A DNA stretch of 64,000 nucleotides from Parvivirga hydrogeniphila. Lineage in GTDB: Bacteria > Actinomycetota > Coriobacteriia > Anaerosomatales > Anaerosomataceae. The stretch spans positions 616,662 to 680,661 of the forward strand of contig NZ_JAMCCO010000001.1 in the NCBI RefSeq assembly GCF_023371205.1, read 5' to 3'. The notes beneath the pieces are model-generated. The model saw nothing but the letters and a program-made list of their open reading frames with translations, made no database searches and was not told where the DNA came from. Positions 22,520 through 47,901 of the stretch are shown here, piece by piece. The position numbers were made by a program, and so were the translations under genes. How positions within the stretch are numbered: position 1 is the stretch's first letter; every line of letters starts with the position of its first letter.

Positions 22520-24187
22520 CTATGCTCGCGATGCGTCCTTGCCAGGCATCACGAGGCTCGGATCTGCGAACGCGAACGGCACGTCTTCGTTCTTCGATGC
22601 GTACATCGCCATGTCAGCGGCGTGCATGAGGTCGCTGAAGCTGCGGCCGTCGGTGGGGTAGAACGCGATCCCTATGGACACGTCGATAGGGACGGCTCCT
22701 TCCTCGATGAGCATCGGCTCTTCCAGCGCTTTGACGATCTTGCGAGCGATCAGTCCTGCGGCCTTTCGCGACGTCACCTGGGGAAGCAGCACGGTGAATT
22801 CGTCGCCGCCGAGGCGTGCGACCGTATCGCTCCGGCGCACGACCTTGCTCAGCCTGCGACCGATCTCGGCGAGCAGAGCGTCGCCGACCGCGTGGCCGAG
22901 CGAGTCGTTGATGAGCTTGAAGTCGTTGATGTCCATGAACATCACAGCGAAGCACGAGTCCTCCCGCTCGGCGCGAGCGATCGCCACCGCGAGGCGATCG
23001 TCGAACAGCGCGCGGTTCGGAAGCCCGGTGAGCAGGTCGTAGTACGCCATCTTGCGGATGGTCTCTTCGGCGCGTTTGCGCTCCGTGATGTCGTGCGCCA
23101 CCGCCTGCACGGCGGGCCTGCCGTGGTACATGAGCGGTGTCGAAGACACCTGCACGTCGACGGTGGTGCCGTCCTTGCGGAGGAATCGGAATTCTGTCGG
23201 CAGCAGGGGCCTGCGCTCAACCACCGTCGTCCTCAGGGCCTCGGCCGCGCGGTCCCGGAACGCCGGGTCGACGAACTCCAGCACGTGCGTCCCCAGCACG
23301 TCACGGGGGTCGTCATAGCCGAGCATGCGCGCGCCGTTCGGGTTGATGAACGACACGACGCCTTCGATGTGGACGAGGATCAGGTCCGGGGCCATCTCCA
23401 CGAGGCTCCGGAAGCGCTCCTCGCTTTCACGGAGCGCGCGCTCGGCGCGGCGTCGCACGGCGACCTCCTCCGTGAGGAGCTCGTTCGCGCGCTCGATGTC
23501 AGCGGTACGCTCGTGGACTTCCCGCTCCAACCGCTCGCTGTACTCCTGAAGGGCGACTTCCGCCCGCCTGATGTCGGTGATGTCACGCGCCGTCTCGACG
23601 ACCGATTCGATCGAGCCGTCCTGTGATAGCACCGGATAGAACGTCGATTCGATCCAGATCTCTCCTCGGGTGGAGTCGACGCTGTGCTTCACGCCGGTCT
23701 GCGGCGCGTGCGTGCGCACGACCTCGTCGAGCCTGCATCCCTCGCACGGTCCGTCAAGACCCAGGACGGCTTCGAAGCATCGACGGCCGACGAGGTCTTC
23801 GGGGTCGAGCCGGGTGAGCCGTTGCGTCGCTGGATTCGCGTAGCGAACCGTGTAGTCCGGATCCAGGATGATCACCGCGTCCGGGCTGTGGTCGTACACC
23901 ATCTGCAGCTTCGACCGCTCGTGCTCGAGCGTCCGCACCGTGGCCGCGTACCGGTCGAACATGGTCTGCGTGTACCACGCACCGAGGCCGATAAGCGCTG
24001 CTATCATGATTCGCAGTGCGAGCGTCGGCGGCTCGGGATGGAGCAGGTCGTTCAGGAATCCGCGGCCTTCGGGCGAGAGGACGCCGTGGACGTAGCTCAC
24101 GGCGAGCCAAAAGAGGATGATGACCCCTAGCGCGGCCGCCAAGAGCCGTGGCTCGTTCCGCGGCGTCGCACCGCGCGGCTTCCTCAT
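22520..24187 (-). CDS. Membrane PAS-PAS-GGDEF diguanylate cyclase
   Basis: About 555 residues. Two transmembrane helices (about 15-40 and 55-80), PAS domain 1 (about 100-215, with a CFEAVLGLDGPCEGC cysteine motif), a coiled coil (about 215-265), PAS domain 2 (about 265-385) and a GGDEF domain (about 385-550). The active site RLGGDEF is intact and an I-site RRSD lies five residues before it, so the enzyme should make c-di-GMP with product inhibition. No EAL domain. ATG 24187 follows GAGGGGACGATC. Confidence 0.93.
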   Translation of the reverse strand: MRKPRGATPRNEPRLLAAALGVIILFWLAVSYVHGVLSPEGRGFLNDLLHPEPPTLALRIMIAALIGLGAWYTQTMFDRYAATVRTLEHERSKLQMVYDHSPDAVIILDPDYTVRYANPATQRLTRLDPEDLVGRRCFEAVLGLDGPCEGCRLDEVVRTHAPQTGVKHSVDSTRGEIWIESTFYPVLSQDGSIESVVETARDITDIRRAEVALQEYSERLEREVHERTADIERANELLTEEVAVRRRAERALRESEERFRSLVEMAPDLILVHIEGVVSFINPNGARMLGYDDPRDVLGTHVLEFVDPAFRDRAAEALRTTVVERRPLLPTEFRFLRKDGTTVDVQVSSTPLMYHGRPAVQAVAHDITERKRAEETIRKMAYYDLLTGLPNRALFDDRLAVAIARAEREDSCFAVMFMDINDFKLINDSLGHAVGDALLAEIGRRLSKVVRRSDTVARLGGDEFTVLLPQVTSRKAAGLIARKIVKALEEPMLIEEGAVPIDVSIGIAFYPTDGRSFSDLMHAADMAMYASKNEDVPFAFADPSLVMPGKDASRA

Positions 24188-26669: not shown

Positions 26670-27693
26670 CGGCGGCGCCTGCACGGTCGCGCCCGGCGTC
26701 TTTCGCCTCGTACAGCGAGGTATCGGCGGCCACGATAAGCTCATCGACCGAGCGCGGCCGAGAGCCTGCCGGGTCGAGGGCGATAGCGCCGCCGACGCTG
26801 ACGCGCACGGGGATCGCCACGCCGTCTGCAACAGTCACCGACCGGGAGCGGACGGCATCGAGGAGCCTGCGTGCGAGGGCCTCGTACTCCTCGACCCCGG
26901 ATTCGGGTGCTACGATCGCGAATTCGTCGCCTCCGTAGCGCAGCGCGAGGTCCGAGGCCCGGATCGACGACCGGATGGACTCGGCGACGGCCTTCAGCGC
27001 GCGGTCGCCCGCCCGGTGGCCGTGGCCGTCGTTGATGCCCTTGAGCCCGTCGAGATCGACGAGCACGAGCGCGATCGGCCGGCCGTACCGGGCGGCCCAG
27101 GCGAGCCACTGCGGCAGGTGTGTGTCGAGCGCGCGGCGGTTCCGCAGACCCGTGAGCGGGTCTTGGGTCGCGAACCGCGTGAGCTCTCGGTTGTCCGACC
27201 ACGTGCGCTCGAGCACCTTCGCGAGCGTGGCCGCGGTCGAGCCTGGCTGCGCGTGACGCGCGATCGCGGCCACGAGGCGCTGCACGTGGTGGCTGTACGC
27301 ATCGTGGCGTGATGTCGCGTGCGCCGGCTCCATGAGGTCGATGAGCTGGCTGAACACGGGATCGAGCATGAAGAACTCCACCCGCGCCGCGAGCCCAAGC
27401 GCGGTCTCGGGATCGACCTGCTCAGGCGACGTCCTGTGCGCGACGCTCATCTCCTCACGGATGTGGCGCAGGCGCGTGAGCAGCGATCCAGGGTCATCGA
27501 CGATGTCGGGAAGCAGTCCGCGGTCCCACGCGTCCAGAAGCTCGCTCCACCACCCGACGTGCGTGCGCTCCTCGTCCGCGAGCGCGCGGAAGAGCGCGCG
27601 CAGGTCTTCGGAGCCGAGGCGCTCCGCGAGCGCGCGGTAGAAGTGTTCAGCGCGTTCGTCGAGCTCGATGCACAGTGCAAGGATCTCGTGCAC
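26650..27693 (-). CDS. Ferritin-like (rubrerythrin-type) domain fused to GGDEF diguanylate cyclase
   Basis: About 347 residues. N-terminal residues 1-165 predict a four-helix bundle with rubrerythrin-like carboxylates: E13/E16 before HFYRALAE, and E42-x-x-H45 in ADEERTHVGWW. Helix 3 adds RVEFFMLD and helix 4 HHVQRL. The C-terminal GGDEF domain has an intact RYGGDEF and an I-site RASD five residues upstream. A di-iron or other metal centre may tune c-di-GMP synthesis to oxygen, peroxide or iron; this is inference. GTG 27693 is preferred (AAAGGAC ahead, family-like start). ATG 27726 is the alternative. Confidence 0.85.
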   Translation of the reverse strand: MHEILALCIELDERAEHFYRALAERLGSEDLRALFRALADEERTHVGWWSELLDAWDRGLLPDIVDDPGSLLTRLRHIREEMSVAHRTSPEQVDPETALGLAARVEFFMLDPVFSQLIDLMEPAHATSRHDAYSHHVQRLVAAIARHAQPGSTAATLAKVLERTWSDNRELTRFATQDPLTGLRNRRALDTHLPQWLAWAARYGRPIALVLVDLDGLKGINDGHGHRAGDRALKAVAESIRSSIRASDLALRYGGDEFAIVAPESGVEEYEALARRLLDAVRSRSVTVADGVAIPVRVSVGGAIALDPAGSRPRSVDELIVAADTSLYEAKDAGRDRAGAAVTLELR

Positions 27694-37329: not shown

Positions 37330-37384
37330 GGCCCGCGCATGAAATATGCATCAGCGGGGTTCAGGCTTGCTCATATTATACAGC

Positions 37385-37402
37385 AAGTGATTGATTTCAC
37401 TT
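37385..37402 (+). promoter_or_regulatory. Inverted repeat upstream of the antiporter operon
   Basis: AAGTGA-TTGATT-TCACTT is a perfect 6-bp inverted repeat with a 6-nt centre. A second one, TTGCT (37367-37371) and AGCAA (37382-37386), flanks TCATATTATAC. TACACT at 37412-37417 could be a -10 element, with the repeat covering the -35 region (TTGATT, 15-nt spacer, short). Confidence 0.45.
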
Positions 37403-37515
37403 CGTCCGTGGTACACTCCTCTATGAAATCGTGAACTGCTGCGAGCACTTCCTTGAAGTCGGCGCCAGCAGGGGTCGTGTTGCTGTGCGCAGGTCGCGCG
37501 GGGTCTGGGGCTGCC

Positions 37516-38361
37516 ATGCTGAGCGAGAGCGAGGGCGAGCGTGCGCGAGGTCCTCGGGTGCAGCTCGGGTCGCTGCTGATCATCGCAGCGACATGGGGTT
37601 TCGTAACGCTCTTGTTGTCCACCGGTTCCATCGCGGCGCTGGTCTGGCCGCTCATGAGCGTTCCGATCGTGCTGGCAGGACTCCTGCTCGGGCCCGGCGG
37701 CGGGGTGGTGACAGGAGCGCTTAGCGCCCTTGCGGCGTTCCTGTTGCTCCGTGAGCATACATCGTCGGTGTGGGCAGGGATCGGCTCGTTCACCGCCATC
37801 GCCGTGATCGCTGGCATCAAGACCACGCGCGACGAGGCGCGTATCGTGGAGCTGCAGGCTCTCAGCGCGCTCGATCAAGAGACCGGCGTGATCTCGGAAC
37901 GGCACTTCTGTTCTCGCGTCGAGGAAGAGGCCCGCAGGTCCGTCCGCTACCGCCATTCCTTCGGTGTCGTCCGCGCATCGGTCTCCGGCTACCAGAGCTT
38001 CGTCAGGAAGTTCGGTTCGTTCAAGGGGAAGGCGATGCTCGCCCGCTTCGCAGAAGCGGTGCGGGCCGCCGTCCGCGACAGCGACATCGTCGGACGTCTC
38101 GGGGAACACGACATCGGAATCCTGCTGCCGCAGTCGGGGACAGCAGAATGCCAGGCGGTTGCAACACGGGTCTCAGACATCGTCGCCCAAACCCGTTTCG
38201 AGGGCGACGCGGTCGAGCCGTTCGTGACTGCGGAGGCGAGAACGGCGTGGGCGGTGTTTCCTGACGACGCCGAGAACGTCGAGACGCTTCTGGGTTTGCT
38301 GCGAGAGCGGATCGCGCTTGCGGACGATTCGCTCTTTTCTGAAACGGGTGTCCAGGTATGA
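37516..38361 (+). CDS. Membrane protein with degenerate GGDEF domain retaining the I-site
   Basis: About 281 residues. Two to four hydrophobic helices (about 15-105) precede a cytoplasmic GGDEF-fold domain. The active-site loop reads GEHDI (196-200) in place of GGDEF and the usual substrate/metal motif is replaced by SGYQSFVRKFGS, so catalysis is unlikely. The I-site R187-x-x-D190 is kept five residues upstream, as required for c-di-GMP binding. ATG 37516 has a weak ribosome site; a TTG at 37453 is in frame. The stop overlaps mrpE (ATGA), placing it first in the antiporter operon. Confidence 0.82.
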   Translation: MLSESEGERARGPRVQLGSLLIIAATWGFVTLLLSTGSIAALVWPLMSVPIVLAGLLLGPGGGVVTGALSALAAFLLLREHTSSVWAGIGSFTAIAVIAGIKTTRDEARIVELQALSALDQETGVISERHFCSRVEEEARRSVRYRHSFGVVRASVSGYQSFVRKFGSFKGKAMLARFAEAVRAAVRDSDIVGRLGEHDIGILLPQSGTAECQAVATRVSDIVAQTRFEGDAVEPFVTAEARTAWAVFPDDAENVETLLGLLRERIALADDSLFSETGVQV

Positions 38362-38837
38362 AGACCGGCCAGTGTGCAGCGCTCCTCGCGGTCTTCTGGT
38401 TCATTCTCGTTGGGCGCCAGAACGTGGTCTCTGACATCGTGGGGCTTCTTGCCGCCGTCCTGATCGCCTCGTGGGCCTCTTCTCGGCTCTGGGCGCAGGA
38501 CGAACCTCCTGTCCTCGGTCCGGTCCAGTGGCTTCGCTTCGTCGGCTACGTCCTTCGCCTGGTCCGAGACATCGTCGCCGCCGCTGTCGTCGTGGCGGAG
38601 AAGGTGCTCGACCCGCGCATGCCGATCGAGCCGGTCCTCATCGCCCATCGCGCGAAGTTCGACCGACAGGTGAGCCGGGTCGCCCTAGCGAACTCGATCA
38701 CGCTGACGCCCGGCACCCTGACAGTGGACGTCGACGGTGACCAGTTCCTCGTGCATTGCCTCGCTGAGGAGTTCGCGGAGGACATCGTCAACGGGACGTT
38801 CGAGCGCCGCATCCGGCGCGTGTTCGAGGAGCGCTGA
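38358..38837 (+). CDS. mrpE: Na+/H+ antiporter subunit E (MrpE/MnhE)
   Basis: 159 residues with two N-terminal membrane helices, then the conserved VLDPRMPIEPVLIAHRAKF...LANSITLTPGTLTVDVDGDQFLVHCL segment of MnhE. Small accessory subunit of the multi-subunit cation/proton antiporter. Coupled to the upstream GGDEF-like gene. Confidence 0.93.
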   Translation: MKTGQCAALLAVFWFILVGRQNVVSDIVGLLAAVLIASWASSRLWAQDEPPVLGPVQWLRFVGYVLRLVRDIVAAAVVVAEKVLDPRMPIEPVLIAHRAKFDRQVSRVALANSITLTPGTLTVDVDGDQFLVHCLAEEFAEDIVNGTFERRIRRVFEER

Positions 38838-38838
38838 C

Positions 38839-39114
38839 ATGGACACCTTCCTGTGGGGCGCAGCGGTGTTCCTGTTGGCTGTGGCTTCGGTGTGCCTCTA
38901 TCGAGCGTATACAGGGCCGACTGTGCTGGACCGCGTGCTGGCGGTGAACGTCATAGGCACCAAGACGATGGTTCTCCTGGTGATGCTCTCCTTCGTCTTC
39001 GGCAGGCCGCTGTACATCGACGTCGCACTCGTGTATGCGCTCTTGAACTTCGTGACCACTGTCGTCGCCACGCGGTACTTCGAGACGGGCGCGTTGAAGG
39101 GTGAGTGGCAGTGA
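38839..39114 (+). CDS. mrpF: Antiporter subunit F (MrpF)
   Basis: 91 residues, three membrane helices. YRAYTGPTVLDRVLAVNVIGTKTMVLLVML is the MrpF signature. ATG 38839 follows the mrpE stop directly; its own stop overlaps the mrpG GTG (GTGA). Confidence 0.92.
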   Translation: MDTFLWGAAVFLLAVASVCLYRAYTGPTVLDRVLAVNVIGTKTMVLLVMLSFVFGRPLYIDVALVYALLNFVTTVVATRYFETGALKGEWQ

Positions 39115-39446
39115 GCATCGTCGACGCTGTGCGCTACGCCGTCTCGGTCGTGCTGATCTCGATTGGGGCGTTCTTCTTCTTCGTCGGCACGCTTGGTCTG
39201 CTGCGCTTCCCGGACTTCTACTCCAGGACGCACGGGGCGACCAAGTGCGACACGGTCGGGGCCGGCTCGATCCTCATCGGCCTGGCGTTGCTGCGTGGCC
39301 TTGCACCGGACGCCCTGAAGATCCTGGCCATCGCGGCGCTCGTCCTTCTCACCAGTCCGACTGCCGGGCATGCCCTCGCGCGGGCCGCGTACCGTACGGG
39401 CCTCAGGCCGTGGACGCGCCGCATCGATGGGGGTGAGCGTACGTGA
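39111..39446 (+). CDS. mrpG: Antiporter subunit G (MrpG)
   Basis: 111 residues, three membrane helices. FFFFVGTLGLLRFPDFYSRTHGATKCDTVGAGSILIGLAL is diagnostic of MnhG/PhaG. GTG 39111 overlaps mrpF; GTG 39105 is an alternative. The C-terminus is basic (TGLRPWTRRIDGG). Confidence 0.92.
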   Translation: MSIVDAVRYAVSVVLISIGAFFFFVGTLGLLRFPDFYSRTHGATKCDTVGAGSILIGLALLRGLAPDALKILAIAALVLLTSPTAGHALARAAYRTGLRPWTRRIDGGERT

Positions 39447-39697
39447 GCGTGGAGATGAGCCGGCTGTTCGACCTCGGGCTGATGGTGCTGCTCGTGCTGT
39501 GCGCGCTCGCTGTCGTGCGGACGAAAGACCTGCTCGCCGCGGCGATCATCTTCTCGGCATACAGCCTCGTGATGTGTCTGGTCTGGGACCATCGCGGCGC
39601 GCCCGACGTGGCGATGACGGAGGCCGCGGTCGGCGCTGGCGTCACCACCGTCTTGTTCCTCTCGGCCGTCAGCAAGACGGTACGGAGAGAGAAGTGA
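39443..39697 (+). CDS. DUF4040 / MbhD-like antiporter subunit
   Basis: 84 residues, hydrophobic. LAVVRTKDLLAAAIIFSAYSLVMCLVWDHRGAPDVAMTEAAVGAGVTTVLFL matches DUF4040, equivalent to MbhD and to the segment fused into canonical MrpA. It is a separate gene here, as in membrane-bound hydrogenases. The stop overlaps the next gene (GTGA). Confidence 0.9.
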   Translation: MSVEMSRLFDLGLMVLLVLCALAVVRTKDLLAAAIIFSAYSLVMCLVWDHRGAPDVAMTEAAVGAGVTTVLFLSAVSKTVRREK

Positions 39698-40401
39698 AAA
39701 AGGCGCTGATCATAGCGTTGCTCGTGGTGGCGGCCATGCCCCTCCTTGCGGCGATGGCCCAGATGCCGCAGTTCGGTAGCGCACGGCAGCCCGCGTACAC
39801 GCATGTCGCACGCCGATACCTGGAGCGGGGCGCCGAGGAAGCAGGCGCTGACAACATCGTCACGGGGGTGATCCTCAACTATCGCGGCTTCGACACGAAC
39901 GGCGAGGTGACGGTGATCTTCACGGCGTGTGCGGCGGTGTGCGCGGTGCTCGCGTCGCAGCGGTCGAGCAAAGAGAAGGGAGCGAGCGGCGCTACGGTCC
40001 CGCTCAGTCCAGTCGTCGCGTACGTCGTACGGCTTCTGGCGCCGTTCATCGCACTGTTCGCTTTCTACGTGGTGCTGTTCGGAGAGAGCTCGCCTGGCGG
40101 CGGCTTCCAAGGAGGGACGATCTTTGCAGCGCTCGTCATCATCCTGTCCGTGGTGACGGGCCGCGAGGTTGCGGAGCGCATGCTTCCTGGCAGCGTGCGT
40201 CCGTGGCTCCAGATCGCAGGCCCCCTTTCGTTCATCGTCGTCGGCACGCTCGGTGCGATCCTGACAGGCGGGTACCTCGGCTTTCCGCAGACCTCCAAGA
40301 GCCTCACCACGGCCATGCTGATGGTCATCGAGTTCGGCATCGGTGTCGGTGGCGCGACCGTGTTCGCGACCATCTTCTGGCGGCTGGGTGATGAGCTGTG
40401 A
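39694..40401 (+). CDS. Fused MbhE-like and MrpB antiporter subunit
   Basis: 235 residues. The first about 90 residues match MbhE (a helix, then HVARRYLERGAEEAGADNIVTGVILNYRGFDTNGEVTVIF). The C-terminal about 140 residues are MnhB (YVVRLLAPFIALFAFYVVLFGESSPGGGFQGGTIFAALVI...SKSLTTAMLMVIEFGIGVGG). GTG 39694. In canonical Mrp these halves lie in MrpA and MrpB, so this is an Mbh/Mrp-like arrangement. Confidence 0.9.
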   Translation: MKKALIIALLVVAAMPLLAAMAQMPQFGSARQPAYTHVARRYLERGAEEAGADNIVTGVILNYRGFDTNGEVTVIFTACAAVCAVLASQRSSKEKGASGATVPLSPVVAYVVRLLAPFIALFAFYVVLFGESSPGGGFQGGTIFAALVIILSVVTGREVAERMLPGSVRPWLQIAGPLSFIVVGTLGAILTGGYLGFPQTSKSLTTAMLMVIEFGIGVGGATVFATIFWRLGDEL

Positions 40402-40751
40402 TCGCAACGCTGTGGGCGAACTTCGATTACGCCGTTTCGGTGCTGCTGTTCTTGATCGGGCTGTACTGCGTGATCGCCAAGAACAACCTGATCAAGAAGT
40501 TCATGGGCCTCAACATCATGGAGACCTCGGTATTCGCGTTCATCGTGGCGCTCGGCGTCGTCCGAGGCGGCAGCGCGCCCATCATGGGACCCGACGCGCG
40601 CCCGCCGTTCGTCAACCCGATCCCACAGGCGCTCATCCTCACAGGCATCGTGGTCGCTGTCAGCACGACCGCGCTTGCACTCGGCCTGATCGTGCGGGTC
40701 TGGCGGCAGTGCGGGACGATCGAGGCGAACGAACTGAGGGAGCTGGAGTAG
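40398..40751 (+). CDS. mrpC: Antiporter subunit C (MrpC/NuoK-like)
   Basis: 117 residues, three membrane helices. YCVIAKNNLIKKFMGLNIMETSVFAFIVALG is the NuoK/MrpC core with the buried glutamate of the coupling channel. DPIPQALILTGIVV-like sequence (NPIPQALILTGIVVAV) is present. GTG 40398 overlaps the preceding stop. Confidence 0.93.
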   Translation: MIATLWANFDYAVSVLLFLIGLYCVIAKNNLIKKFMGLNIMETSVFAFIVALGVVRGGSAPIMGPDARPPFVNPIPQALILTGIVVAVSTTALALGLIVRVWRQCGTIEANELRELE

Positions 40752-42245
40752 ATGTGGTGGCAGTGGCCGCACTGGCTCCCGCTCGCGGTCCTCGCACCGC
40801 TTGGGTTCGGCGTGACGACGCCTGCTGTCTCCAATGGTGATGTCCGGAAAGCGTGGAGATGGGCCGTCGCCGCGTCCGTGCTCACGACGTGTGTGACGCT
40901 CGCGCTCGTCGTGCGTGTTGCGCACGAAGGACCGTTCTCGTACGCGTTCAGTGGCTGGCAGCCGCCGTATGGCATCGAATTCCGGTTCGACGAAGTGGGC
41001 GCGTTCGCATTCGTCGTCGCGTTCCTCGGGATGCTCGCGGTCGTCTTCTCAGGACGCTATGCGGAGCATGCGCTGGATCCGTGCCGCGTTCCGTACTACT
41101 ACGCCCTGTTGCTGCTGGACATCGCTGGCCTCATCGGATTCTCGGTGACCGGCGACATGTTCAACATGTACGTGTTCATGGAGATCATTTCGCTTTCTTC
41201 GTATGCGCTCGTGGCGGTGAGCGGTGAACGCATCGCTGAGATGGCGGCGTTCAAGTACCTCGTGCTCGGGGCGGTGTCGTCCCTGCTCGTTCTCTTCGGC
41301 ATCGGGATGATCTACGGGATCACGGGCACACTCAACCTCGCCGACGCGGCTCGACTGCTTGGCTCCGTCGTGGCGCTGACGCCGGTCGCCGTGGCGATCG
41401 CTCTTATCGTCGCTGGGTTCATGGTGAAATCAGCGCTGTTCCCTCTCCATGTGTGGCTGCCCGACGCCCATGCGATTGCGCCGAGCCCGGTGAGCGCGAT
41501 CCTGTCGGGTCTGGTCGTGAAGGTTGGGCTGCTCGGCACCTTCCGGTTCTACCAGGTCGTCTACCGGTCCGGCGCTGTCGACCTCGGGTCTTTGAACCAG
41601 CTGCTCGTGTGGCTCGGGGCCATCTCCATCGTCATGGGCGCGTTCTTCGCGATATTCCAAGACGACATCAAGATGATGCTCGCGTACTCGACCATCTCGA
41701 ACGTCGGGTACATCGTCATGGGGATAGGGCTCGCGTCCCAGTACGCCGTGATCGGTGCGGCAGTCCACATCTTCAATCACGCCATCATCAAGTCTGCGCT
41801 GTTCTTGGCGGCCGGGGCGATCATCCACCAGACGGGGTACCGGCGTCTGAGCGATTTGCGGGGCGTCGGTCGCGGCATGCCGCTGACGGCGGCCGCGCTC
41901 TCGGTGGGCGCTGTCTCCATCGTCGGCATCCCGCCGACCGCGGGGTTCCTCTGCAAGTGGTACATCGCGCTCGGGGCGTTCGAGGCGGGCCGTCCGGCGT
42001 TCGGGTTCGCGCTCATCTTTGGCGCGCTTTTCATCTTCGTCTACTACATCCGGATGCTGAACGCGTTCTACTTCCAAGAGCCGGTGCACGCCGACGTCGT
42101 GCATGCAGGCGATCCGCCGTTTTCCATGCTGGTGCCGACCTGGATCCTCGCGGGGCTCTGTCTCGCGATGGGTCTTGCAGGCAAGGTGCCGCTCACGTTC
42201 ATCGCACCGGCAGTCGGCCGACTGCTCGGTTCGGCGGGAGGGTGA
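40752..42245 (+). CDS. mrpD: Antiporter subunit D (NuoN/MrpD-like)
   Basis: 497 residues with about 14 membrane helices. FNMYVFMEIISLSSYALVA carries the TM5 glutamate, MVKSALFPLHVWLPDAHAIAPSPVSAILSG the TM7 lysine and discontinuous helix, and DDIKMMLAYSTISNVGYIV the TM8 lysine region. A proton/cation-translocating module. First of four consecutive antiporter-like subunits. Confidence 0.93.
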   Translation: MWWQWPHWLPLAVLAPLGFGVTTPAVSNGDVRKAWRWAVAASVLTTCVTLALVVRVAHEGPFSYAFSGWQPPYGIEFRFDEVGAFAFVVAFLGMLAVVFSGRYAEHALDPCRVPYYYALLLLDIAGLIGFSVTGDMFNMYVFMEIISLSSYALVAVSGERIAEMAAFKYLVLGAVSSLLVLFGIGMIYGITGTLNLADAARLLGSVVALTPVAVAIALIVAGFMVKSALFPLHVWLPDAHAIAPSPVSAILSGLVVKVGLLGTFRFYQVVYRSGAVDLGSLNQLLVWLGAISIVMGAFFAIFQDDIKMMLAYSTISNVGYIVMGIGLASQYAVIGAAVHIFNHAIIKSALFLAAGAIIHQTGYRRLSDLRGVGRGMPLTAAALSVGAVSIVGIPPTAGFLCKWYIALGAFEAGRPAFGFALIFGALFIFVYYIRMLNAFYFQEPVHADVVHAGDPPFSMLVPTWILAGLCLAMGLAGKVPLTFIAPAVGRLLGSAGG

Positions 42246-42246
42246 C

Positions 42247-43722
42247 ATGGAGACCGTCGACGTCAGGGTCGTGCTGGCCCCGGCCATCTCATTCACGTGC
42301 GCGGGTCTAGTGTTCCTGATGGGTCGCAGCGTGTTCTGGCGGCGGTTCTGGAGCCTAGGCGCAGCGACGCTCAAGCTCGCGGTGGTCATGTCGATGCTGC
42401 CTGGGGCCCTTGCGGGCAAGACCTTCGTGTGGGATCTCATCGAGTTCACGCCAGGCATCGGCATAGCGTTCAGGGCAGACGCGCTCGGCATGTTCTTCGC
42501 GACGGTCTCTTCAGCGCTGTGGCTCGTCACCACCGTGTACGCCATCGGGTACATGGAGCCGGAGCAGGCCAAGGTGCGGTTCTTCGGCTTTTTCGCCTTG
42601 TGCGTGTCGACCACGGTCGGTGTGGCGTTCGCGGAGAACCTGCTCACGCTGTTCGTCTTCTACGAAACGCTCACCATCTGCACATATCCGCTCGTCATCC
42701 ACGAGGAGACGCCGGAGGCGTTGCGTGCCGGCAGGAAATACCTTGCGTACACCTTGAGCGGTGGAGCCTGCATCCTTCTCGGCTCTGCCCTGACGTACCA
42801 GGTGGCGGGCACGCTCACGCTCTCTCGATCCGGCATACTGCCGGCCTCTGCAGACCCGCGCACTCTTGCCGTCCTGTTCGCGACGCTCATCGTTGGCTTC
42901 GGCGTGAAAGCGGCGATCATGCCGCTGCACGGTTGGCTGCCGACCGCCATGGTGGCTCCGACGCCGGTGAGCGCGCTCTTGCACGCAGTCGCGGTGGTCA
43001 AGGTGGGCGCGTTCGGTATCCTGCGCGTTGTCTACAACGTCTTCGGGATCGAGCTTCTGCGCTCGCTCGGGTTCACGGTGCCGCTCGCGTATCTGGCGGC
43101 GTTCACCATCGTCGTCGCCTCCGTTGTCGCGCTGTTCCAGGACAACCTCAAGCGCCGGTTGGCGTACTCGACGGTGAGCCAGCTCTCCTACATCGTCTTG
43201 GGGGCCTCGCTGCTGGCTCCGTCGGCGGCGTGCGCAGCGGTGGCGCACATCGCCAACCAGGCGTTCGCAAAGATCACGATGTTCTTCGTGGCCGGCGCGA
43301 TCCAGCGCACCACGGGCAAGACGCAGGTCCACGAGCTCGCCGGGATCGGGCACGAGATGCCGCTGACGATGGCCGCCTTCACGGCCGCATCGCTGTCGTT
43401 CATCGGCGTGCCGCTGTTCGCGGGCTTCATCACGAAGTGGTACCTCTCGCTTGGGGCGCTCGAGTCAGGTATGTGGTGGTTCGCGATCGTGATGCTGGCG
43501 AGCTCGCTTCTCAACGCTGCGTACTGGCTGCCCATCGTCTACCTGGCTTTCTTCAAAGGATCGCCCGAGCGCAGGCCTGAGGTCCGTGAGGCGAGGCCGC
43601 TGCTTCTTGTGCCGACGCTCGTGTGCGCGGTGTGGGTGATCGTCCTCGGTACGACGAGCGACGTTCCCGGCATGCCGTTCGCGCTCGCACGGGCGGCCGT
43701 TGAGTTCGTGTTCAAGATGTAA
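42247..43722 (+). CDS. Second antiporter-like subunit (NuoM/MrpD family)
   Basis: 491 residues, about 14 helices. LLTLFVFYETLTICTYPLVIHEETPEALRAGRKYL holds the TM5 glutamate, GFGVKAAIMPLHGWLPTAMVAPTPVSALLHAVAVVK the TM7 lysine, and QDNLKRRLAYSTVSQLSYIVLG the TM8 motif. The HEETPEALRAG(R/T)KY stretch is shared with the following paralogue and resembles Mrp/Mbx-linked subunits. ATG 42247 after GGGAGGG. Confidence 0.9.
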   Translation: METVDVRVVLAPAISFTCAGLVFLMGRSVFWRRFWSLGAATLKLAVVMSMLPGALAGKTFVWDLIEFTPGIGIAFRADALGMFFATVSSALWLVTTVYAIGYMEPEQAKVRFFGFFALCVSTTVGVAFAENLLTLFVFYETLTICTYPLVIHEETPEALRAGRKYLAYTLSGGACILLGSALTYQVAGTLTLSRSGILPASADPRTLAVLFATLIVGFGVKAAIMPLHGWLPTAMVAPTPVSALLHAVAVVKVGAFGILRVVYNVFGIELLRSLGFTVPLAYLAAFTIVVASVVALFQDNLKRRLAYSTVSQLSYIVLGASLLAPSAACAAVAHIANQAFAKITMFFVAGAIQRTTGKTQVHELAGIGHEMPLTMAAFTAASLSFIGVPLFAGFITKWYLSLGALESGMWWFAIVMLASSLLNAAYWLPIVYLAFFKGSPERRPEVREARPLLLVPTLVCAVWVIVLGTTSDVPGMPFALARAAVEFVFKM

Positions 43723-43734
43723 TCGGAGGACGAG

Positions 43735-45237
43735 ATGGATGCGGGAGCTCATACGAGCTGGGTGGTGCCTGCGGCGGTCTTCGTTCCGTTGCTCGGTGGC
43801 TGCGCCGCGGGTGTTTCGGGAGCGTGGCCGAAGAGGCTGCGGTGCGGCGTGCTCTCAGCGGTGGCCGTGCTCTCGGTCGCTCTGACATCGTGGGTGCTCG
43901 TCCGCGTCTCGTCGGGCGTGACGTTGGAGGCCCACCTCGTCAAGATGACCCCGCAGATCTGGATCCATCTCAAGGTGGACGCTTTGGGGTCACTGTACGG
44001 AGTGCTGGCCGCCGTTCTGTGGCTGCTGGCGCTCGCGTACTCGTTCGGATACATGGCCGATGAGCACCGCCTGCCCCGGTACTACGCGTTCTTCCTGTTG
44101 AGCCTTGGCTGGACCGTCGGTGTGGCGTATTCGGGGAACCTGCTGACGTTCCTCGTCTTCTACGAGCTGTTCAGCATCCTCACCTACCCGCTTGTCGTGC
44201 ACGAACAGACGCCGGAGGCGCTTGCTGCAGGCACCAAGTACATCGTGTACATACTCGTCGGCGGGAGCCTCGTGCTGCTCGCGATCGTATACACGTACTT
44301 CCTGGCGGGCGGCCAGGACATCGGTCGGCCGCTGCTCGACGCGGGGATGCCGCGGGCGCAGCTCCTCGCGGTCTTCTGGTGCTTCATTGCTGGCTTCGGC
44401 GTGAAGGCCGCGCTCGTTCCCTTGCACGGGTGGGTGCCCGACGCTCATCCGGCTGCACCTGCGCCGTTCTCCGCGGTCCTGTCAGGGATCATGGTCGCCA
44501 CGGGAACGTTCGGCATCATGCGCGTTTTCTTCAACGTCTTCGGCGTCGAGCTCGTGCGCTCCCTTGGCGTCGGACGATGGGTGGCGTACGTGGCTGCGTT
44601 CACGGTCGTGTTCGCCGCTTTGCTCGCGATGAACCAAGACGACATCAAGCGGCGGCTCGCATACTCGACGATCTCGCAGATGGGTTACGTGGCGCTCGGC
44701 GTCGCGCTGTTGGATCCGCAGGCCACGACAGGCGCGATTGTGCACGTCGCGAACCACGCCTTCATGAAAGGCGCGCTGTTCTTCTGCGCGGGACTGTTCA
44801 TCAAGCGTCTCGGCGTGCGGTCGGTGCGCGAGCTTGACGGTGCTGCCAAGCGGATGCCGGTGACCGCCGCCGTCCTGACGATCGCGTCGCTCGCGATGAT
44901 CGGCACGCCGCCGCTCGCGGGATTCGTGAGCAAGTGGTACCTCGGTCTTGGGATCCTGCACTCAGGGCAGGTGGGGTACCTCGTCGTGCTGATTGGCGGC
45001 GCTCTTCTGGCTGGCGTATACCTGCTGCCCATCGCGTACCGCATGTACTTCAAAGAGCCGGGTCCGGCTCTGCCAGAGACGCTGCACGCAAAAGGGGGTT
45101 CCGGCGAAGCGCCGCTCACGATGCTTGCTCCGCTCGTCGCTGCTGCGCTCATCGTGATCCTGCTCGGCGTGTGCGCCGCATCGCCCTTCTTGCCAGCGGA
45201 GGTGGCCAAAGGCGCAGTCGAGGCGTTCTTCCGGTGA
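43735..45237 (+). CDS. Third antiporter-like subunit (NuoL/M family)
   Basis: 500 residues, close paralogue of the preceding gene. YELFSILTYPLVVHEQTPEALAAGTKYIVY, GFGVKAALVPLHGWVPDAHPAAPAPFSAVLSGIM and QDDIKRRLAYSTISQMGYVALG retain the channel charges. Likely arose by tandem duplication. GGAGGA precedes ATG 43735. Confidence 0.9.
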   Translation: MDAGAHTSWVVPAAVFVPLLGGCAAGVSGAWPKRLRCGVLSAVAVLSVALTSWVLVRVSSGVTLEAHLVKMTPQIWIHLKVDALGSLYGVLAAVLWLLALAYSFGYMADEHRLPRYYAFFLLSLGWTVGVAYSGNLLTFLVFYELFSILTYPLVVHEQTPEALAAGTKYIVYILVGGSLVLLAIVYTYFLAGGQDIGRPLLDAGMPRAQLLAVFWCFIAGFGVKAALVPLHGWVPDAHPAAPAPFSAVLSGIMVATGTFGIMRVFFNVFGVELVRSLGVGRWVAYVAAFTVVFAALLAMNQDDIKRRLAYSTISQMGYVALGVALLDPQATTGAIVHVANHAFMKGALFFCAGLFIKRLGVRSVRELDGAAKRMPVTAAVLTIASLAMIGTPPLAGFVSKWYLGLGILHSGQVGYLVVLIGGALLAGVYLLPIAYRMYFKEPGPALPETLHAKGGSGEAPLTMLAPLVAAALIVILLGVCAASPFLPAEVAKGAVEAFFR

Positions 45238-45249
45238 AAGCGGGCTGAT

Positions 45250-47901
45250 GTGCACGAAGAGGCCGAGGCATACGTGAGCGTGCTTCCCGTTGCGGCCGTC
45301 GCACTGCCGCTTGTCGCGGCCGTGCTGGTTCCGCTGCTCGGGCGCGTGCGCGCCGCGTTGCGCAACGCCTTCGTCGTGGCAGCGGTCGGTGCCGACCTTC
45401 TCCTCGTTGCGGCGCTCGTGCCGCAGGTCGCCGAGCATCATCGTGTCACGGCCGCAGTCCTCCCGGCCTTCATGGGCGGCCTATGCTTCACGGTCGATTC
45501 GTTCTCGCTGCTGTTCGCTCTGTTCTCAGCGCTCGTATGGTTCGCATCGACCCTGTACGCGCTCGACTACCTCGCACACGAGCAGCATCACGATCGCTAC
45601 CACATCACGAATCTCGTTGCCCTCGCTTCCATGCTCGGCGTCGTGATGGCAGGAGACCTCGTCACGCTCTACCTGTTCTTCGAGTCGCTCGGTCTGGTCG
45701 CGTTCTTGTTTGTGATCCATGCAGAGACCGACGAGGCGAAGCGTGCGGGCGTGAAGTACTTCTGGATGACCGTCGTCGGCGGGTTCGCGCTGTTCGGCGG
45801 CATCGTGGCGACGTTCGGTCTCGGGGGGAGCGGGACACTTGCGCCGCTTCCGGCGGGCGGCCCTGTCGCGCTCAAGTGGCTTGCCGCCGGGCTGCTCGTG
45901 CTCGGCTTCGGCGTCAAGGCCGGCATGCAGCCCGTGCACGTGTGGCTCCCGGACGCCCATCCTGTCGCGCCCTCACCAGCGAGCGCTCTGCTCTCAGGCG
46001 TCATGATCAAGGCCGGCGCGTACGGGATCTTCCGCACGGTGACGGCGCTGTTCAGACCGGAGGTCTCGGAGCACCTCGCGGAGCACGCCTGGGCCTTCAG
46101 CTCGGAGCTCGGGATGGTCGTCCTGTGGATCGGAATCTTCACGATGTTCACAGGGGTGTGCATGGCACTGCTGCAAAGCAACGCGAAGCGCATGCTCGCG
46201 TACCACTCGGTGTCGCAGATGGGATTCATCCTGGCAGGCATCGGCGCTGCCGGATACCTCGGCGCGCACGGCGCGATGGGTATCGCTGGCGGCCTGTTCC
46301 ACGTATTGAACCACGCGCTGTTCAAGGCATGCCTGTTCTTGGGTGTCGGCGCCGTGTACTTCCGAACGCGCTCGCTGGACATGTACCGCCTCGGTGGGCT
46401 TGCGAAGCGGATGCCCTTCACGTTCGCATTCATGGCCGTGGCTGCTGCGGGAATCACGGGAGTTCCGCTGTTCAACGGGTTCGTGAGCAAGTGCATGATC
46501 CATCATGCCCTTGTCGAAGCGCACGACCTGCATCACCTCGCATCGCTCGGCTTCGCCGAGAAGGTGTACATCGTGACGTGCGGAGGCACGGCCTGCTCGT
46601 TCATCAAGCTTATCGGGCTCACGTTCCTCGGCCGGCCGAAGGTCGAGTACGGACCGGAGGTGCGAGAGGCTCCGCCGCGCATGCTGGTGGCGATGGGGGT
46701 CCTTGCCGCGGCGATCATCATGCTGGGCGTCCGGCCGCAGCTCGTCATCCGCGGCATCTTCGAGCCCGGACTGCACCTGTGGGGGCTGCACTTCGGCGTG
46801 TTGGAAGAGTATCTGGCCGAGTACTTCTTGCGGTGGGGCGACATCTCGTCGGTGCTGGTGGCGTTCGCCATCGGTGCGAGCGTGTTCACGGTCGGGATGA
46901 AGACGGGCTTGTTCCATGCACACCTTCCGCGTTGGCTGTCCATCGACTGGTGGTACCTGCAAACGGTGTCAGCGCTGGGCCGCGGCATCGAGCGGATCGG
47001 CCGGACGTACGATGCCTGGCTGCGCGGCGTGTCTGACGCGTTGTGCCAGGTCCGGGACGTGTACGATTGCTCGCGGTCGCGTGTGGAGCGGTGGTATCGC
47101 AGGGCGGTAGCGGTCATGACCACCGGTGTGACCGAGAGGCTTGCGCAGCGCGCGATTGCCCGCGCTGAAGTCGCCCTGGAAGTCGAGCGGCACGAAGAGG
47201 TCCGCCAGGCCGTGGACAGGGCCGTGAGGCTCTTGAGCTCGGCCGGTGTGACGGACGAGGGCGAGTGGCGGGACGCGATCGAAGCCGTTCGCGAATCAGC
47301 AAGCTACATCGCGCAGCGACTGTTCGCTATCAGGCTTGCGGTAGTCCAAGACGCTGTGCGTCAGGGCCACGCGCGTGAGGTCTTGGAGCACATCGATGGT
47401 CTCGTCGCCGATACGGCTGCGACGCGAGAGCACGTCGCGGCAGCGGCCTTCGCAGCTGCCGCCGACAGGCGTGGAGGCCGGGACGTCGTGCGGCGTCTGG
47501 CCGCCGCAGCGAACGCCGCGGCAAGCGAGGAGCGGTTCGATCTCAAGGTGAAGGCCGCGATTCGAGGCCGTCCGGTCGCTGCGGAGCACCTCGCAGCGAG
47601 GGCAGAGGAAGCGCCAGCAGCGGCGGCGCGGAGCGCGCGGGAGGCATTCGAGGGCGGCAGCTCGTGGTCGCGGCGCACGTCCGTCTCGTGGAGCAGGTGG
47701 CTGCTCGACATGCTCAGGCTGGGCGTGGATGCGATGACGCGGGAACGGGCGGGCAGGGTGTTCGACACGTCGAGCAGCGAGGAGAGCGTGCTGTTCACGA
47801 GGCGTGCGATCACGCGCTATGCTCGCGACATGAGCTTCAATGTCGCCGTGATCGTCGGAGTCCTGCTGCTGTTCGTTGCGGCCGTCATGCAGCGACGCTG
47901 A
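45250..47901 (+). CDS. Fourth antiporter-like subunit (NuoL/MrpA-like) with large C-terminal insertion
   Basis: 883 residues. Residues about 1-550 are a NuoL/MrpA-type core (VTLYLFFESLGLVAFLFVIHAETDEAKRAGVKYF; GFGVKAGMQPVHVWLPDAHPVAPSPASALLSG; QSNAKRMLAYHSVSQMGFI). From about 560 to 855 comes a charged, Ala/Arg/Glu-rich, mostly helical stretch without membrane segments. A last helix (about 860-880, FNVAVIVGVLLLFVAAVM) ends the protein. In NuoL the lateral helix precedes a final helix, so the insertion may be an expanded lateral element. GTG 45250; GTG 45274 is possible. Ends 4 nt from a convergent gene. Confidence 0.9.
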   Translation: MHEEAEAYVSVLPVAAVALPLVAAVLVPLLGRVRAALRNAFVVAAVGADLLLVAALVPQVAEHHRVTAAVLPAFMGGLCFTVDSFSLLFALFSALVWFASTLYALDYLAHEQHHDRYHITNLVALASMLGVVMAGDLVTLYLFFESLGLVAFLFVIHAETDEAKRAGVKYFWMTVVGGFALFGGIVATFGLGGSGTLAPLPAGGPVALKWLAAGLLVLGFGVKAGMQPVHVWLPDAHPVAPSPASALLSGVMIKAGAYGIFRTVTALFRPEVSEHLAEHAWAFSSELGMVVLWIGIFTMFTGVCMALLQSNAKRMLAYHSVSQMGFILAGIGAAGYLGAHGAMGIAGGLFHVLNHALFKACLFLGVGAVYFRTRSLDMYRLGGLAKRMPFTFAFMAVAAAGITGVPLFNGFVSKCMIHHALVEAHDLHHLASLGFAEKVYIVTCGGTACSFIKLIGLTFLGRPKVEYGPEVREAPPRMLVAMGVLAAAIIMLGVRPQLVIRGIFEPGLHLWGLHFGVLEEYLAEYFLRWGDISSVLVAFAIGASVFTVGMKTGLFHAHLPRWLSIDWWYLQTVSALGRGIERIGRTYDAWLRGVSDALCQVRDVYDCSRSRVERWYRRAVAVMTTGVTERLAQRAIARAEVALEVERHEEVRQAVDRAVRLLSSAGVTDEGEWRDAIEAVRESASYIAQRLFAIRLAVVQDAVRQGHAREVLEHIDGLVADTAATREHVAAAAFAAAADRRGGRDVVRRLAAAANAAASEERFDLKVKAAIRGRPVAAEHLAARAEEAPAAAARSAREAFEGGSSWSRRTSVSWSRWLLDMLRLGVDAMTRERAGRVFDTSSSEESVLFTRRAITRYARDMSFNVAVIVGVLLLFVAAVMQRR

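Follow-up and report, generated by a model that had tools for sequence, protein, structure and literature searches.

A Degenerate GGDEF Membrane Protein with a Retained I-Site Heads an Mrp/Mbh-Type Antiporter Operon in Anaerosomatales and Is a Candidate c-di-GMP Receptor

Gene Content and Organization of the Locus

The window analyzed here, a stretch of 64,000 nucleotides from Parvivirga hydrogeniphila, contains an operon that starts with a gene encoding a degenerate GGDEF membrane protein and continues with genes encoding the subunits of a putative antiporter (Table 1). Genes for MnhE, MnhF, MnhG, MnhB, and MnhC, as well as for antiporter-like subunits (four with a PF00361 domain, i.e., Proton_antipo_M), are found in order, which is the gene content of an Mrp/Mbh-type module; the operon is thus predicted to encode a cation/proton antiporter of this type. 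The antiporter half of Mbh is encoded in the order MnhE-F-G-MbhD-MbhE/MnhB-MnhC-MnhD-like. The window operon matches this order, but differs in that no hydrogenase genes follow, in that it contains four antiporter-like subunits, and in that a GGDEF protein is encoded first. No consensus promoter could be identified by a scan upstream of position 37516; an AT-rich stretch (37340–37420) within GC-rich surroundings is located just upstream of the operon.

Table 1. Features of the GGDEF gene and the downstream antiporter operon (window coordinates).
Feature	Position	Strand	Domain or basis
Membrane protein with a degenerate GGDEF domain, heading the operon	37516..38361	+	281 aa ORF
Membrane part, residues 17–116	37564..37863	+	Four predicted helices (AlphaFold model)
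GGDEF fold, residues 118–260	37867..38295	+	Pfam GGDEF, E = 2e-15; structural match, Z about 22
Helix arginines R141 and R144 (partner-side I-site)	37936..37947	+	R141 in 29/30, R144 in 30/30 orthologues; alignment mapping
I-site RxxD (RDSD), residues 187–190	38074..38085	+	R and D in 30/30 orthologues
GEHDI replacing GG(D/E)EF, residues 196–200	38101..38115	+	Motif position in alignment
R218, third I-site arginine (PleD R390)	38167..38169	+	29/30 orthologues
FEGD motif, residues 228–231	38197..38208	+	Invariant in 27 aligned orthologues
ATGA, overlap of GGDEF gene stop and mrpE start	38358..38361	+	
mrpE/mnhE	38358..38837	+	PF01899
mrpF	38839..39114	+	PF04066
mrpG	39105..39446	+	PF03334
mbhD	39443..39697	+	PF13244
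mbhE-mnhB fusion	39694..40401	+	PF20501 + PF04039
mnhC	40398..40751	+	PF00420
Three antiporter-like subunits	40752..45237 (40752–42245, 42247–43722, 43735–45237)	+	PF00361
Fourth antiporter-like subunit (883 aa), at the end of the operon	45250..47901	+	PF00361

An AlphaFold model of the GGDEF protein (input of 27 orthologues; mean pLDDT 88.9) presented four predicted membrane helices (residues 17–36, 40–58, 60–77, and the first part of 83–116), in agreement with the original prediction, made from the sequence of this locus, that the protein is membrane-bound; the last of these helices extends on toward the cytoplasmic part and leads straight into the GGDEF domain. The model aligned well with solved GGDEF structures, including PleD (1w25; Z 21.5, rmsd 2.0 over 160 residues with VIA-align). 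A Pfam scan of 27 orthologues detected no GAF domain and identified a match to DUF4118, the KdpD-type four-helix membrane domain, in 19 of them (best E of 7.7e-8); the window protein itself was not matched by this profile. A fold search with the membrane part alone (pLDDT 76) returned no clear, informative match in the PDB.

Loss of the Active Site and Retention of the I-Site

In PleD, D327, N335, and D344 are essential for catalysis, and the I-site is formed by R359 and D362 (the RxxD motif), R390, and R313 of the partner subunit (PMC7288161). The window protein presents S155, V163, K172, and H198 at the positions equivalent to PleD D327, N335, D344, and E370, and the E371 equivalent is likewise replaced; in each of 30 orthologues (see below), the D327 and N335 equivalents are replaced. 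These substitutions bear out the earlier claim that GEHDI takes the place of GGDEF and that the substrate-binding motif is lost. With its metal ligands gone, along with the guanine-binding residues and the GGDEF motif itself, the fold is predicted to no longer make c-di-GMP.

The I-site, on the other hand, is complete. Five residues separate RDSD from GEHDI, the same gap as in PleD and WspR; the original prediction had pointed out that RDSD has the exact I-site spacing. Alignment with WspR, along with this spacing, maps R187 and D190 to PleD R359 and D362 and R141 to PleD R313, and R218 is located 31 residues past the RxxD arginine, exactly as R390 is in PleD. R144 maps by alignment to WspR R198. 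The window protein thus lacks the features of an active diguanylate cyclase (i.e., GG(D/E)EF, the metal ligand, and the guanine-binding residues) and presents those of a degenerate I-site receptor (i.e., a GGDEF fold with a lost catalytic motif, RxxD, a downstream Arg, and a partner Arg). The FEGD motif that follows the I-site helix is not conserved in the other GGDEF paralogues; it was rejected as a hallmark of the degenerate clade, as it is also common in the canonical relatives linked to Mrp operons, described below.

A retention test was carried out on 51 GGDEF columns with ≥90% conservation in 33 canonical relatives, with a column considered kept if it was ≥90% conserved in 28 degenerate proteins. 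The degenerate clade kept five of the five I-site columns, none of the nine active-site columns, and nine of the 37 other columns; Fisher exact tests comparing the I-site with the other columns (p = 0.0024) and with the active site (p = 0.0005) yielded values that are optimistic and only indicative, since the sequences share ancestry. This pattern indicates that the I-site has been kept selectively while the active site decayed, as a c-di-GMP receptor predicts. As RxxD was found in all 46 canonical GGDEF paralogues of these genomes (a sample picked by similarity), the motif dates back to the ancestor, and it is informative only in that it has persisted. The P. hydrogeniphila genome encodes five further non-canonical GGDEF-like domains, three of which do not contain RxxD; the fold therefore does not require this motif, which can disappear once catalysis is lost. 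Another degenerate GGDEF domain of this genome (L012, C3:131516–131848), with GDGRF at the motif position, keeps RxxD (RLVD) and represents a possible second receptor.

Conservation Across Anaerosomatales

A full-length orthologue, well set apart from other GGDEF proteins, was identified in 27 of 61 related genomes, and in each of these 27 genomes the next genes downstream, with the same orientation, are mrpE-F-G-mbhD. A class-wide search (396 genomes) brought the total to 30 orthologues, every one of them from a single order; all scored >300 bits, the next best match reached 149 bits and covered the GGDEF part only, and the three additional orthologues are also syntenic, such that all 30 directly precede mrpE of the same operon type (type 1). 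The nearest named relative was found in Coriobacteriaceae bacterium EMTCatB1 (58% identity), and the named relatives carrying the family motif are all Coriobacteriia/Anaerosomatales genomes. The ATGA overlap with mrpE noticed in the window is real, and an overlap of 4 nt between the GGDEF gene stop and the mrpE start is kept in 28 of the orthologues, with 1 nt in the other two. These data rule out an association that arose by chance or is restricted to one genome, the latter being the outcome that the original prediction had named as evidence against itself.

Despite a mean pairwise identity of 44% in the GGDEF part (n = 30), the I-site residues are invariant or nearly so (Table 1). A canonical GG(D/E)EF motif was not found in any of the 30 orthologues, which present 28 different five-letter motifs at this position. 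The presence of RxxD in 30/30 along with GG(D/E)EF in 0/30 orthologues is a pattern far beyond chance.

Judged by mnhC, the type-1 operon is present in 33 genomes of the order. Where the contig permits judgement, only two genomes of one genus (G057 and G141) have a type-1 operon without the GGDEF gene; G021, G058, and G600, in which the locus runs into a contig edge, were left out of this count. A second, paralogous Mrp operon (type 2) is frequent in the same genomes, with an mrpE only 26–36% identical (L103–L119), and no homologue of the GGDEF gene was found at the type-2 operons examined. Similarly, no GGDEF gene was found near 16 more distant Mrp operons from other lineages of the phylum (mnhC 46–62% identical), all of them with 2 kb or more of sequence available on the upstream side. 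A link of the GGDEF gene to every Mrp operon can therefore be ruled out.

Canonical Relatives and Direction of Change

Beyond the class, a phylum-wide search (396 genomes) identified relatives, nearly all of them full length, in some 19 genomes. At 10 loci in other Actinomycetota (L190–L198 and L200), a canonical GGEEF protein is encoded directly upstream of the orthologous mrpE operon; these proteins keep the equivalents of D327, D329, and N335 as well as the full I-site. They are likely to be active, although Asn at the position of PleD D344 leaves some doubt. At L189, also linked to an Mrp operon, the encoded protein is degenerate (GGGQF). A survey of Mrp/Mbh operons for adjacent degenerate GGDEF genes had been proposed along with the original prediction; in this Actinomycetota sample, degenerate genes are found across the order and at L189, 10 loci carry a canonical gene, and the distant operons carry none.

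Five canonical paralogues (L199, L204, L205, L207, and L213) are located just downstream of another Mrp-like module. The remaining canonical paralogues are found elsewhere, several of them (e.g., L202, L203, L208, and L215) upstream of genes for a ROK kinase and for a ferredoxin-like DUF362 protein, and some of these paralogues follow genes encoding a TgpA-like transglutaminase and a DUF58 protein. Because canonical paralogues also adjoin a ROK kinase gene, the membrane part is not dedicated to Mrp throughout the family.

In a phylogenetic tree whose root was not fixed, a branch with 100/100 support separates the 28 degenerate proteins from the others. Loss of an ancient GGDEF motif nevertheless represents the simpler direction of change. 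The family probably started from an active cyclase, and a receptor role would therefore be a derived state.

A Probable c-di-GMP Receptor That May Control an Antiporter

Taken together, we consider it probable (roughly 0.6) that this protein is a membrane-anchored c-di-GMP receptor, derived from a diguanylate cyclase and similar to PelD, that adjusts an Mrp/Mbh-type antiporter. The two parts of this reading differ in strength: conservation strongly suggests that c-di-GMP is bound at the I-site, and genomic context suggests that the protein may control the antiporter. As far as sequence can go, the original prediction of a c-di-GMP receptor that controls a cation/proton antiporter is supported. 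The cytoplasmic GGDEF fold, having lost its catalytic residues, would make no c-di-GMP; instead, intercalated c-di-GMP would be bound in a dimer, where one subunit would provide R187, D190, and R218 and its partner R141/R144, as suggested by conservation and by homology to PleD, WspR, and PelD. Judging from the model, binding would change the packing of the long helical extension of the fourth membrane helix, and the four-helix membrane part may relay this shift to the co-translated antiporter, changing its activity or assembly; this last step is suggested by the translational overlap and the order-wide synteny.

The c-di-GMP signal would be supplied by the canonical cyclases of the cell. The P. 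hydrogeniphila genome encodes several of these, as well as two EAL proteins and one c-di-GMP-I riboswitch (L225, C1:391590–391679; 68.5 bits), so that c-di-GMP is very probably made and sensed in this organism; no PilZ protein was found in this genome. Two canonical cyclases noted earlier as active-looking are indeed present in the window, at 22586–23047 and 26683–27171 (both on the minus strand), and both contain GGDEF and RxxD.

The protein could alternatively be a sensor or assembly subunit, with a membrane part that senses ions or the state of the antiporter or aids assembly, and with the GGDEF domain as a leftover dimerisation module that would require no nucleotide. The strong operon linkage and the DUF4118 matches of the membrane part would fit such a role, as would the active-looking enzymes in other lineages, in which information may once have flowed from the antiporter to c-di-GMP. 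A plain dimerisation module, however, would not be expected to keep five I-site positions while losing nine active-site positions, and we consider this explanation unlikely.

There is a small chance that the old I-site binds another nucleotide, such as c-di-AMP. This nucleotide is reported to act on ion transport in Gram-positive bacteria (PMC7288161; a KdpD study, PMC4686210) and the target here is a cation transporter, but c-di-GMP is the ligand of the kept residues in both PleD (PMC7288161) and PelD (PMC7112168). In addition, the Mrp-linked relatives bear the full c-di-GMP synthase motif.

Active GGDEF domains function as dimers, and several canonical GGDEF proteins are encoded in the genome, so the protein might form heterodimers with one of these and alter its activity as a partner or decoy. 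However, a search of the order recovered no canonical member of this four-helix family, as matches beyond the 30 orthologues cover essentially the GGDEF part only, and this explanation, which is improbable, would leave the linkage to Mrp unaccounted for. Residual low-rate c-di-GMP synthesis, for which activity of the degenerate AGDEF protein VCA0965 provides a precedent (PMC3974145), is highly improbable given the replacement of the D327, N335, E370, and E371 equivalents. Neutral decay of an unneeded cyclase, i.e., a pseudogene in the making, would account for the lost catalytic site but hardly for an ORF, overlap, fold, and I-site kept in 30 genomes at the sequence divergence described above.

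Comparison with Known Systems

The receptor reading has its closest parallel in PelD of Pseudomonas aeruginosa and Bacillus cereus, a membrane protein with a degenerate cytoplasmic GGDEF domain in which RxxD and a downstream Arg bind c-di-GMP, and whose gene shares an operon with the membrane machine under its control (PMC7112168, PMC7288161). PelD binds c-di-GMP with a KD of 103 nM, and R363, D366, and R395 are each needed (PMC7112168). However, PelD contains a GAF domain and controls an exopolysaccharide synthase; the window protein is thus PelD-like but not a PelD, since it has no GAF domain and is linked to an Mrp rather than a pel operon (30/30 orthologues). PleD and WspR share the GGDEF fold and I-site residues with the window protein, but are active enzymes subject to product inhibition. 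A physical tie between a GGDEF domain and a transporter is found in an ammonium transporter (PDB 8qj3 and 8qpf), where, unlike here, both are on a single chain; the window protein forms a subunit of its own, its GGDEF domain is degenerate, and the transporter belongs to a different class. DgcY from Halomonas hydrothermalis Y2 also combines a GGDEF domain with a membrane location and has a link to the salt response (PMC12421958), but it is an active cyclase without a canonical I-site, and the main text of that study does not mention Mrp.

No description of a link between c-di-GMP or diguanylate cyclases and Mrp or antiporters was found in the open-licence literature (5.39 million papers), consistent with the earlier remark that such a link seemed undescribed, and the paper describing the order (PMC9686372) does not mention Mrp or antiporters. 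Degenerate GGDEF receptors are known as a kind; what appears to be new is the antiporter target, together with a traceable change from cyclase to receptor at the head of one operon. We give an even chance to the specific history in which a cyclase heading an Mrp-type operon in part of the Actinomycetota turned, in place, into a pure c-di-GMP receptor in Anaerosomatales, such that c-di-GMP would act directly on a transport complex.

Implications

c-di-GMP is best known for the control of life on surfaces, motility, and exopolysaccharide production. If the receptor reading is true, a bioenergetic ion-transport complex would represent a new class of c-di-GMP target, and c-di-GMP would be tied to membrane energetics and to Na+ and pH balance in widespread, poorly cultured subsurface anaerobes. 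The family would also allow the conversion of a cyclase into a receptor to be traced; as it contains both an apparently active cyclase and a catalytically dead putative receptor in front of the same operon, the switch from enzyme to receptor is directly testable.
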